Positions 12,242 to 24,051 of a stretch of 64,000 nucleotides of DNA are shown here, piece by piece. The stretch's first letter is position 1; each line of letters begins with the position of its first letter. The stretch is from Paracoccus salipaludis (GTDB lineage: Bacteria; Pseudomonadota; Alphaproteobacteria; Rhodobacterales; Rhodobacteraceae): NCBI RefSeq assembly GCF_002287065.1, contig NZ_NSJZ01000004.1:124001-188000 (forward strand), read 5' to 3'. The notes below the pieces were generated by a model. The model ran no database searches. It saw only the letters and a program-made list of their open reading frames with translations, and had not been told where the DNA came from. The translations under genes and the position numbers were made by a program.

Positions 12242-13431
12242 GGCGCATCCCCCGCCAGCACGGCGATATCCACCAGCGCAGGTGCCGGCATCAGAAAGTC
12301 GCCCTCGATCCACGCCGCCTCGGCCGCCTTGAGGCCACGTCCCAGGGCAGGCCCCGACAGCCGGTGCGACAGGTCGGCGGCAGAAATCGGCAGCACCTGC
12401 TTCGCGGCGAAATCGATCTGCTCGCGCCAGTCGGACCTCAGCGCCTCGCCCCGCGACGCGCGCAGCAGGGCAAGTTGCCCCGCCCGGCCGGCCCCCAGCC
12501 GATAAGCCGCCTCGCCCAGCGGCAGGCCCGAGCGCAGTTCCTCCTGCACCCGCGCCTCGGCCCGGGACAGCCGCAGGGCGCCTGCCGTATCCTCCGCCCC
12601 GAGCGCCGCAAGCCGAAGCTCCCAGTCCTTCTTCTTCGTCGAAATATCCCGGGGTCCGGGGCAGCGCCCCGGTCCGGCGCCTCCCTCCGGCGCCACGGCG
12701 CAAAGCGCGGCCAGACCGTCCGCCCTGCCCCCCGGCAGGACCTGCGCCAGAACCCCCGTCGTTTCCATCAGCCGCACCGCCTCCACGGGATCGTCGGCCG
12801 ACAGAAGCTTGCGCATCTCGGCCCCGATCCGCTCGCGCGAGATGCGGGACAGCCCTTGAGCATGGCGGGCACAGGCGGCGACGGCCTCGGCGTCGGCCGC
12901 CCCGGGACGGCCATAGCGGGCATGAAAGCGGAAAAAGCGCAGGATGCGCAGGTAATCCTCGGTGATGCGCCGGTCAGGGTCGCCCACGAAGCGCACCCGC
13001 CGGGCGGAAAGGTCGGGCAGGCCCCCCACCGGGTCCAGCACCTCGCCCGACGGCTCGGCGTAAAGCGCGTTCATGGTGAAATCGCGCCGCGCGGCGTCGT
13101 CCTCGATCCGGTCGGAAAAGGCCACGACGGCGCGGCGGCCGTCCGTTTCGACATCGCGGCGGAAGGTCGTGACCTCGAAGCCACGGCCGTCCGCGACCAC
13201 GGTGACGGTGCCATGCTCGATCCCCGTGGGCACCGGCTTCAGCCCCGCCGCCCGGGCGAGGTCCACCACCTGCCCGGGCCGCGCATCGGTGGCGATGTCG
13301 ATGTCCTCGACCGGCTCGCCCAGCAGGGCATTGCGGACCGCGCCGCCCACGACCAGCGCGCGGTGCGGGGCCAGCGCCCCCAGCACCCGGCGCAGGGACG
13401 GATCGCCCATAATCGCCCTTGGCAGCCTCAT
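12238..13431 (-). CDS. cca: CCA tRNA nucleotidyltransferase
   Basis: A 397-residue class II nucleotidyltransferase. It carries LVVGGAVRNALLG and the catalytic DIDIAT carboxylates (about 42-48). These are followed by RRDFTMNALY, DPVGGLPDL and EDYLRILRFFRFHARYG, as in alphaproteobacterial CCA-adding enzymes. Residues 251-268 are encoded by a repeat copy that is intergenic elsewhere and appear to be an insertion between the neck and body helices. The frame is kept, so the enzyme may still work. It overlaps the Nudix gene upstream and the ABC gene downstream by ATGA. Confidence 0.92.
   Translation of the reverse strand: MRLPRAIMGDPSLRRVLGALAPHRALVVGGAVRNALLGEPVEDIDIATDARPGQVVDLARAAGLKPVPTGIEHGTVTVVADGRGFEVTTFRRDVETDGRRAVVAFSDRIEDDAARRDFTMNALYAEPSGEVLDPVGGLPDLSARRVRFVGDPDRRITEDYLRILRFFRFHARYGRPGAADAEAVAACARHAQGLSRISRERIGAEMRKLLSADDPVEAVRLMETTGVLAQVLPGGRADGLAALCAVAPEGGAGPGRCPGPRDISTKKKDWELRLAALGAEDTAGALRLSRAEARVQEELRSGLPLGEAAYRLGAGRAGQLALLRASRGEALRSDWREQIDFAAKQVLPISAADLSHRLSGPALGRGLKAAEAAWIEGDFLMPAPALVDIAVLAGDAP
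12627..12679 (+). repeat. Dispersed 53-bp repeat inside cca
   Basis: Matches 51 of 53 positions of the copy at 22975-23027 (same strand). It contains AAATATCCCGGGG and the palindromic GGGGCAGCGCCCC core. On the cca strand it is read in frame as residues 251-268, a Gly/Pro/Lys-rich stretch without family counterpart that I can recall. Confidence 0.85.
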
Positions 13432-22067: not shown

Positions 22068-22961
22068 TCAGTCCAGACGCGCGGGCAGGTCCATCCCCCG
22101 CAACGCCTCGGCGGCGGGCATCGGGCGCTTGCCCTCGCGCTGCACTTCGGTGATCTCGACCGCGCCGTTGCCGCAGGCGACGACCAGCCCGCCCAGCACC
22201 TCGCCCGGCACGCCCTGCTCCTCGGACAGGCGCGAGCGCAGAAGCTTCAGCCGCTCGCTCCCCGCCACGCACCAGGCGCCGGGAAATGGCGACAGCCCCC
22301 GGATCAGACGGTCCACCTCGGCGGCGGGGCGCGTCCAGTCCACCCGCGCCTCGGCCTTGTCGATCTTGGCGGCATAGGTCACGCCCTCGGCCGCCTGCGG
22401 CACGGCGGGCAGCGGCAGGCGGTCCAGCACATCCACGATCAGCGCGGCACCCATTCCCGACAGCCGGTCGTGCAGGTCGGCGGTGGTGTCCTCCGCCCCG
22501 ATGGGGGTGCGCGCCTCGGCCAGCACCGGCCCGGTGTCCAGCCCCGCCTCCATCTGCATGATGGCGACGCCGGTCTCGGCGTCCCCCGCCATCACCGCGC
22601 GGTGGATCGGCGCGGCCCCCCGCCAGCGCGGCAGCAGCGAGGCGTGGATGTTGAGGCACCCCAGCCTCGGCGCATCCAGCACCGGCTGCGGCAGGATCAG
22701 CCCATAGGCCACCACCACCGCCACATCGGCGCCGAGGGCCGCGAACTCCGCCTGCTCCTCGGCCCCCTTCAGCCGCACGGGGGTCCGCACCGGAATGCCC
22801 AGCGCCTCTGCCGCGGCCTGCACCGGCGAGGGCCGGGGCTTCTGCCCCCGTCCCGCAGCCCTCGGCGGCTGCGAATAAACGCAGACGACCTCGTGGCGCG
22901 CCGCGATGGCCTGCAAGGCAGGAACGGAAAACTCGGGCGTTCCCATGAACACGACGCGCAT
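22068..22961 (-). CDS. fmt: Methionyl-tRNA formyltransferase
   Basis: A 297-residue enzyme formylating initiator Met-tRNA. It starts [16 protein letters not shown] and carries the catalytic segment [25 protein letters not shown] 22961 is the family start. A frame reading further upstream passes into the dispersed repeat, which also supplies the AAGGAAGGGAG Shine-Dalgarno region. Last of the def / def-like / fmt unit. Confidence 0.96.
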
Positions 22962-22974
22962 CACCCGCTCCCTT

Positions 22975-23027
22975 CCTTCTTCTTCGTCCAAATATCCCGG
23001 GGTCCGGGGCAGCGCCCCGGTCCGACG
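22975..23027 (+). repeat. Dispersed 53-bp repeat between def-like gene and fmt
   Basis: 51 of 53 bases match the copy inside cca (12627-12679). Here it fills the 70-bp space between the def-like stop and the fmt start. Its edge provides the purine-rich ribosome-binding region of fmt. Confidence 0.85.
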
Positions 23028-23031
23028 GCCG

Positions 23032-23532
23032 TCACCTGCGCGACAGCTTCGCCGCCTTGGCCACCAGCATCCGCCGCTTCAGGGGCGACAGGCGGTCCAC
23101 GTAGAGCCGACCGTCCAGGTGGTCGATCTGGTGCTGAACGCTGGTCGCCCACAGGCCCACGAAGTCCCGCTCCTCGACCTCGCCCGCCGCGTTGAGAAAC
23201 CGCACTGTCACCGCCCGCGGCCGCTCGATCACCGCAGAGACGCCCGGCAGGTTCGGCGAGGCCTCCTCGTGCGACCGCAGCTTCACCGAGGCGTGCAGCA
23301 CCTCGGGGTTCGCCATCCGCACCGCCTGCCCCCGCGCGTCCGAGGCATCCACGACCGCCAGCCGCAGCATCACCCCGATCTGCGGCGCGGCAAGGCCGAC
23401 GCCCGGCATGGCCTCCATCGTGTCGACCATGTCGTCCCAGATCGCCCGGATCTCGTCCGTGACCGCCTCGACCGGCGCTGCGGGCATGTGCAGCCGCCGG
23501 TCGGCATAGGGGATGAAGGGCCGGACCGCCAT
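23032..23532 (-). CDS. Degenerate peptide deformylase-like protein
   Basis: A 166-residue paralogue of peptide deformylase. Motif 1 is kept (GVGLAAPQ, 44-51). Motif 2, EGCLS in active enzymes, reads EASPN here, so the metal-ligand Cys is lost. Motif 3, HELDH, reads HQIDH (134-138), so the catalytic Glu is Gln. Both metal histidines remain. It starts on the base right after the def stop and precedes fmt. Hydrolysis of formyl-Met is unlikely; binding of peptides or ribosomes is possible. Clean frame and codon use argue that it is a maintained gene rather than a pseudogene. Confidence 0.85.
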
Positions 23533-24051
23533 TCAGGCCCGCGCCATCTCGCGCTTCATCTTGGTCATCCGGCGCGCGATCATCTGCCGCTTCATCGGCC
23601 CGATGTGGTCGATGAAAAGCTTGCCGTTCAGGTGGTCCAGCTCGTGCTGCGCGCAGGTGGCCCAGAGCCCGTCGAAGTCCCGCTCATGCGTCTTGCCGTC
23701 GAGGCCCGTCCAGCGCATCCGCACCTCGGCGGGCCGCGTGACATCGGCATATTGCTCGGGGAAGGACAGGCAGCCCTCCTCATAGGTGTTCAGCGCCTCC
23801 GAGGTGCCCACGATCTCGGGGTCCACCATGACCAGCGGCGCGCGGGGCGCCTGCGCGTCCTTGGTGCAGTCCATGACGAACAGGCGTTGCAGCACGCCGA
23901 CCTGCGGCGCGGCCAGTCCCACGCCCGGCGCGGCATACATGGTGGCCAGCATCTCGTCGGCCAGGGCTTCGATCTCGGGCGTGATCCGGCCCACGGGGGC
24001 GCAGAGCTTCTTCAGCCGGGGATCGGGAAACAGAAGGATGGGGCGCGTCAT
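23533..24051 (-). CDS. def: Peptide deformylase
   Basis: A 172-residue metalloenzyme removing the N-formyl group from nascent proteins. All motifs are intact: GVGLAAPQ (43-50), EGCLS with Cys94, and HELDH with His136, Glu137 and His140. The ATG at 24051 gives the standard start (MTRPILLFPDPRL). First gene of the def / def-like / fmt unit; the divergent C-S lyase begins 78 bp away. Confidence 0.97.
   Translation of the reverse strand: MTRPILLFPDPRLKKLCAPVGRITPEIEALADEMLATMYAAPGVGLAAPQVGVLQRLFVMDCTKDAQAPRAPLVMVDPEIVGTSEALNTYEEGCLSFPEQYADVTRPAEVRMRWTGLDGKTHERDFDGLWATCAQHELDHLNGKLFIDHIGPMKRQMIARRMTKMKREMARA

Follow-up and report, generated by a model that had tools for sequence, protein, structure and literature searches.

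A deformylase homolog with a fixed, rewritten active site beside def and fmt in Rhodobacteraceae

The locus between def and fmt

The window analyzed here, a stretch of 64,000 nucleotides from Paracoccus salipaludis, hosts a deformylase homolog (Def3) with an intact canonical peptide deformylase gene, def (encoding Def1), on one side and fmt on the other (Table 1). This is the placement that had been proposed in an earlier sequence-only reading of the same DNA. In the window, the TGA that ends def is followed directly by the ATG that starts Def3 (junction TGAATG), and fmt starts 70 nt downstream of Def3. The intergenic stretch before fmt has an unremarkable RNA fold (z 0.77). It also holds, beside a GC-rich palindrome, one copy (22990-23009, minus strand) of a 20-base element, CCCCGGACCCCGGGATATTT, whose second copy in the window lies at 12642-12661 on the same strand; 0.02 copies are expected in the window when up to three mismatches are allowed. 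The element may be a genome repeat or a terminator.

Table 1. Coordinates of the genes, motifs and helix at the Def3 locus of the window
Feature	Position	Strand	Basis
fmt, methionyl-tRNA formyltransferase	22068..22961	-	TIGR00460, 276.5 bits (cut-off 201.5)
Def3, deformylase homolog with rewritten active site	23032..23532	-	166 amino acids, ATG start, PF01327
Def3 basic C-terminal helix, residues 150-165, candidate ribosome-docking element	23038..23085	-	Model
Def3 motif III, HQIDH replacing HExDH, residues 134-138	23119..23133	-	Read in DNA: CAC CAG ATC GAC CAC
Def3 motif II, EASPN replacing EGCLS, residues 90-94	23251..23265	-	Read in DNA: GAG GCC TCG CCG AAC
Def3 motif I, GVGLAAPQ, intact, residues 44-51	23380..23403	-	Gln51 1.00 in 153 non-redundant Def3
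Def1, canonical peptide deformylase, EGCLS and HELDH intact	23533..24051	-	PF01327, 175 bits; motifs

Both sequence profiles and the predicted fold assign Def3 to the peptide deformylase (PDF) family. The protein matches PF01327 over residues 4-153 (E 5e-39, 133.7 bits, cut-off 22.8) and the NCBI equivalog TIGR00079 'peptide deformylase' with 126.1 bits (cut-off 103.95). Since TIGR00079 is also matched by all 20 Def3 proteins that were scanned (E <= 0.001), and the window protein exceeds its cut-off, Def3 is probably annotated as an active enzyme in databases. Among named relatives, a Paracoccus MAG is the closest (92% identity). When the whole genome of the window was searched with Def3 (E <= 0.001), two deformylase genes and no third were returned. 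The genome thus shows no Def2, the other paralog of the family, while a congener (G023, locus L003) has all three.

The DNA confirmed the substitutions that had been read in the two catalytic motifs. Compared with EGCLS, motif II of Def3 has Ser for Cys, Pro for Leu and Asn for Ser, while motif III has changed from HELDH to HQIDH. Among the hallmarks of an active deformylase, Def3 therefore has motif I but neither the Cys of motif II nor the catalytic Glu of motif III. Motif I, with its Gln, and both His are intact, which leaves two of the three metal ligands in place.

The arrangement seen in the window is common among relatives, as the gene order is Def1, Def2 (where present), Def3 and fmt in most loci. 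Apparent orders such as Def3 before Def1, together with large negative gaps, are no rearrangements but an artifact of sorting by the start of the open frame. Measured to the profile start, the median gap is -1 between Def1 and Def3 (94 junctions) and -4 between Def2 and Def3 (108 junctions), and this overlap or abutment makes translational coupling of Def3 with the upstream def likely. Def3 is thus coupled as a gene with Def1, which is intact in 204 of 207 Def3 loci. In one further locus (L091) Def1 is cut by the contig end, and in an 83%-complete MAG (L158) it matches only as far as residue 114, next to a complete Def3. In Paracoccus thiocyanatus (L063) Def3 is kept with EASPN and HQIDH, Def1 is on another contig and fmt lies about 2.5 kb away, which indicates that the coupling of Def3 and Def1 is not obligatory and that Def3 can persist away from the def cluster. 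The status of Def1 in these loci implies that the essential activity is not needed from Def3, with L158 as a possible exception.

Def1 of the window has a Tyr at the equivalent of E. coli Arg97, as do 77% of the 191 Rhodobacteraceae Def1, with Phe in another 21%. According to the accessible text of PMC12690207, a Tyr at this position lowers the actinonin susceptibility of Vibrio cholerae Def2. By analogy, intrinsic tolerance to actinonin is predicted.

Fixation and distribution of the rewritten site

The sequence-only reading had left it to be checked whether the altered motifs are conserved in relatives or show random decay. We found no random decay, and the EASPN- and HQIDH-type states are fixed. 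Motif II reads E[AG][SP]P[NC] in all 207 Def3 copies (187 distinct), a set in which a few genomes are present twice (for example L001/L002 and L033/L199) and from which two fragments below the score limit (L261 and L262) were excluded. EASPN accounts for 175 copies, EGSPN for 21, EASPC for seven, EGSPC for three and EAPPN for one. HQ opens motif III in all 206 readable copies; the remaining one is truncated by the end of its contig. None of the 207 copies has the ligand Cys of motif II, and none of the 206 has HE at motif III. The Def3 profiles were built from a starting set defined by motifs (160 Def3 of 421 aligned rows); because membership was decided by the profile over the whole length, reverted copies would have counted, and there are none among the 207. 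One copy, that of L169, is divergent, with HQANH and a changed motif I. In a minority of Def3 (L145, L149, L158, L161, L164 and L166) a Cys lies two positions after the lost ligand (EASPC or EGSPC), which indicates that a thiol can return beside the Def3 site. The presence of the same gene in independent genomes rules out a sequencing or assembly artifact.

In 153 non-redundant copies, conservation at the rewritten site is 0.99 for Ser, 1.00 for Pro, 0.95 for Asn and 1.00 for Gln and for each of the two His. We compared these copies position by position with 191 Def1, up to position 164. At six positions each protein is at least 95% conserved but has its own residue: from Def1 to Def3, Ala to Met at 42, Cys to Ser at 92, Leu to Pro at 93, Ser to Asn at 94, Cys to Ser at 131 and Glu to Gln at 135. 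Five of the six are in the catalytic site or line it. Gln51, Glu90, Arg104, His134 and His138 are at 1.00 in both Def1 and Def3.

To describe the distribution of Def3, we searched 295 Rhodobacteraceae genomes, nearly one per genus, and 287 of them had a deformylase match of any kind. By score, about 251 of the 295 genera (approximately 85%) carry Def3, 36 are without it and eight have no deformylase match at all. The best match was at Def3 level (E <= 3e-59) in 218 of the 295, an assignment made by score, with not all of the loci read. The 72 weaker genomes were searched again with the Def3 profile and returned 31 Def3, the two fragments (L261 and L262), 36 genomes lacking Def3 and three with no match; five others had already been without a match in the first search. 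The absence was read in all 36 loci, some of which belong to incomplete MAGs, and def is still present with fmt in 34 of them. Def3 is dispensable, as these 36 genera do without it.

In the search of the order, a Def3-level match is present in 61 of 61 genomes, which are nearly complete and all belong to the Rhodobacteraceae. In the search of the class (385 genomes), 38 pass E 1e-45, of which five are Rhodobacteraceae, each with Def3, and 33 lie outside the family. Among the best 25 of these 33 matches (L036-L060), none has the Def3 motifs and all 25 are canonical. In the named collection, the matches listed (at least 80 loci) are from Rhodobacteraceae, save three MAGs named to class or phylum. 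So far, Def3 has been seen only in Rhodobacteraceae. A phage or mobile origin was considered and rejected: all 149 matching records of the phage collection are below 60% identity, and, again judged by identity, one of 1,000 plasmid records exceeds 60% (a 1.58 Mb replicon of Pseudorhodobacter turbinis).

One internal stop was flagged in each of eight Def3 matches. In the five that were checked (all but G192, G070 and G198), four stops affect the C terminus only, and that of L261 lies near residue 64. In this 80%-complete MAG (G157) both Def3 and Def2 are in pieces with stops inside, by either decay or assembly error.

Predicted structure, selection and descent

The AlphaFold2 models of Def3 and Def1 have pLDDT values of 97.4 and 96.3, respectively. 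Predicted Def3 superposes on E. coli PDF (1xen, 1bsj and 2w3t) with a TM score of 0.94-0.95, an rmsd of 1.0-1.2 A and 39% identity (Foldseek), and is predicted to have the full deformylase fold. Its tail is helical in the model, as in type 1 PDFs. According to the accessible text of PMC12690207, L149, K150, R153, K157, K160 and R163 of the C-terminal helix of E. coli PDF contact uL22 and 23S rRNA. By motif anchoring, positions in the Def3 helix correspond to the E. coli numbering plus two. Lys or Arg occupies Def3 positions 152, 159 and 162 (E. coli K150, K157 and K160) in 99%, 100% and 99% of the 153 copies, respectively. The equivalent of R163 (Def3 165) is less well kept (Arg 40%, Lys 12%, gaps 24%), and 91% of Def3 have Met at that of R153, where Def1 lacks Arg too (Met 66%, Leu 30%). 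The net charge of the tail is +8 in Def1 (243 copies), +7 in Def3 (206 copies) and -0.5 in Def2 (116 copies), and the Def3 tail is approximately five residues shorter than that of Def1. At the level of sequence, the basic helix of Def3 is retained, which by itself is no proof of ribosome binding. The retained helix nevertheless favors the ribosome-associated role that had been listed among the possibilities for this protein.

The opposite combination is found in Def2, where the site is mostly alive and the charge of the tail is lost, whereas in Def3 the site is rewritten and the helix kept. Def2 forms a second, fast-evolving deformylase clade of the Rhodobacteraceae, mostly with GRGLAAPQ (for example L006, L009, L012 and L015). 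It keeps the Cys and mostly HExDH, and has lost the basic C-terminal tail. The catalytic Glu is lost in four of 116 Def2 copies from three genomes, as HLADH (L068 and L090) or HKLDH (L150/L222).

Def3 is under strong purifying selection. In 57 loci with Def1, Def3 and Fmt, which come from 60 of the 61 genomes of the order search (G294 left out) and were not picked by Def3 similarity, although all carry Def3, Def1 and Fmt both have a mean pairwise identity of 0.693, against 0.641 in Def3, whose identity is above that of Def1 in 20% of the pairs. In the 41 loci with three deformylases, the means are 0.704 for Def1, 0.491 for Def2 and 0.645 for Def3. An earlier comparison (Def1 0.681, Def3 0.671) relied on loci that were mostly the best Def3 matches, which favored Def3. 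For Def3 and Def1 (2,952 pairs, 84 loci), the median dN/dS amounts to 0.253 and 0.289, respectively, and for Fmt (2,092 pairs) and Def2 (639 pairs) to 0.276 and 0.565, in a set that is rich in Paracoccus and selected by Def3, with dS near saturation. By these comparisons, Def3 is maintained close to Def1 and Fmt, if somewhat less strictly, and Def2 is the loose copy.

In a tree of 96 rows, the 31 Def3 rows form one side of one branch (SH-aLRT 99), with a stem of 0.81 changes per site, and they do so again when the motif columns are removed (SH-aLRT 99). On this sequence evidence, Def3 is one clade. We mapped its presence on a tree of Def1 and Fmt with 81 rows, of which 40 have Def3 (10 hand-picked, and two from the same genome), 33 lack it and eight are outgroup. 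Rows lacking Def3 are scattered over the tree and more frequent towards its base; the pattern fits 15 changes, of which at least five are forced by the starred branches. Such counts cannot separate gain from loss. The first-branching Def3 proteins (L166, L162 and L167) belong to genomes that are likewise placed near the base of the Def1 and Fmt tree (there as L265, L162 and L264). An old gain followed by repeated losses would be the simplest reading of this pattern, with modest support.

Possible roles and relation to known systems

The Leu91 backbone NH of PDF contacts the formyl oxygen, and the change from Leu91 to Pro removes this NH. In the accessible text of PMC7683392, Cys90 is needed for the activity of Salmonella PDF, and overexpressed C90S does not rescue growth under zinc stress; according to that of PMC11194573, E133A inactivates B. 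subtilis DefA. By analogy with these mutants, Def3 has most likely lost deformylase activity. The sequence-only reading, which expected both catalysis and metal binding to fail, is likely to be right about catalysis, but the claim on metal binding is too strong, because both His ligands are invariant.

The reading that we prefer, tentatively and at somewhat less than an even chance, is that Def3 docks at the ribosome and binds N-termini without hydrolysis, thereby modulating Def1. In this scenario, def would have been duplicated in an ancestor of the Rhodobacteraceae and the catalytic site rewritten once (in E. coli numbering, by motif anchoring, Cys90 to Ser, Leu91 to Pro, Ser92 to Asn, Cys129 to Ser and Glu133 to Gln), with the fold, the motif I Gln, both His and the positively charged C-terminal helix retained throughout. 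Def3 would dock at the exit-tunnel site of Def1 and bind or shield the N-terminus of the nascent chain, leaving the formyl group in place, and would so adjust the speed of Def1 or its choice of chains. The near-isosteric changes of Cys to Ser and Glu to Gln, together with the invariant His and motif I Gln, make the site look kept for binding rather than abandoned. Since Def3 is kept nearly as carefully as Def1 despite its altered site, its task at the ribosome is probably not enzymatic, or is another one than that of Def1. Against a modulator of Def1 stand the dispensability of Def3, the break in L261, the arrangements in L063 and L158, the shorter tail and the weak equivalent of R163. A more specific version, which we consider doubtful, is a three-way split in which Def1 has site and helix, Def2 the site only, and Def3 the helix and a reader of formyl-Met or the N-terminus that brakes Def1. 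Def3 at the tunnel exit would then decide when, or whether, Def1 deformylates.

The pocket of Def3 appears as conserved as an active site, and a new reaction would fit this equally well. Def3 could be an enzyme whose Ser/His/His/Gln/Asn site, perhaps with another metal or no metal at all, works on N-terminal substrates, formylated or not, which we regard as rather unlikely. The near invariance of the rewritten site in the 153 non-redundant copies is what a working site would show, and Def3 has in common with Def1 L127 and T130 (E. coli 125 and 128), which presumably line the methionine pocket. The accessible text of PMC12690207 places residue 125 of E. coli PDF in the P1' pocket. On the other hand, the general base is neutralized and the Leu that contacts the formyl group is now Pro; one copy lacks the Ser (EAPPN), and no novel catalytic triad is evident in the sequence. 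The tolerated absence of Def3 would also suit a moonlighting or regulatory partner outside the ribosome, such as a binder of a kinase or stress factor. There is precedent in B. subtilis, where, in the accessible part of PMC11194573, the enzymatically dead variant DefA E133A still gives full protection from H2O2, and inhibition of the kinase PtkA by DefA does not depend on its activity. We judge this unlikely for Def3, as the signature of a ribosome-docking helix and the position between def and fmt point to translation.

The replacement of the equivalents of both Cys90 and Cys129 by Ser in 99% of Def3 raises the possibility of a thiol-free deformylase of low activity, resistant to NO or peroxide stress, with a metal held by Ser/His/His. 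In the accessible text of PMC7683392, Cys90 of Salmonella PDF is a target of S-nitrosylation and the change of Cys130 to Ser leaves approximately half of the activity; in that of PMC12690207, activity under oxidative stress is suggested as a possibility for type 3 PDFs. However, the same Salmonella study finds Cys90 required, with no rescue by C90S (PMC7683392, accessible text), the fixed change of Glu to Gln removes a general base in a way that thiol protection does not need, and six of 160 sequences have a Cys beside the site (EASPC five times, EGSPC once), so that we consider this explanation very unlikely. Lost catalytic residues, the 36 genera read without Def3 and the stop in L261 could also be seen as signs of a decaying duplicate, a pseudogene in progress. 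The fixed motif states and a dN/dS no higher than that of working genes make this extremely improbable. Two further candidates were set aside. Def3 as a decoy for hydroxamates such as actinonin is thought unlikely, because these compounds act through chelation of the metal, and its ligands have changed in Def3, and the link of def point mutations with formaldehyde in Methylorubrum (PMC7916467, as accessible) offers no handle on Def3.

Deformylation is, to our knowledge, generally taken as a constitutive, unregulated and essential step. A conserved Def3 without catalytic Cys and Glu would imply a layer of control on the processing of formyl-Met, or a new activity of the fold. If the three-way split were true, Def3 would act as a pseudoenzyme devoted to braking the step with which the maturation of bacterial proteins begins.

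The clustering itself is already in print. In the accessible text of Lamberioux et al. 2025 (PMC12690207), PDF genes are clustered in 98.1% of Rhodobacterales reference species and three are grouped in 62.5%, and the rationale of this clustering is termed elusive. The clustered accessory PDFs described there are the same gene cluster as the Def3 locus. That work treats variant accessory and type 3 PDFs generally, and its accessible parts mention neither the fixed rewritten copy nor the helix contrast. In the literature searched, which mostly lies outside subscription journals, preprints and supplements, we found no description of an inactive clustered deformylase of Rhodobacteraceae, and hence none of Def3 as a pseudoenzyme. 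Def3 offers a concrete handle on these elusive clustered genes.

Among known systems, type 3 PDFs of S. aureus, S. pneumoniae and trypanosomatids resemble Def3 in being motif-substituted proteins with little or no activity that accompany an active PDF (PMC12690207, accessible text). Their changes are in motifs I and II, whereas those of Def3 are in II and III. We therefore did not assign Def3, whose motif I is intact in the window, to type 3, a distinction drawn by motifs. B. subtilis DefA with PtkA is a minor PDF with a cellular role independent of catalysis, which E133A retains (PMC11194573, as far as accessible), but DefA is naturally active and from a different organism, while Def3 is naturally without the catalytic Glu and Cys. 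With E. coli PDF (1xen, 1bsj and 2w3t), predicted Def3 has the fold in common and differs in lacking the metal-ligand Cys and the catalytic Glu.
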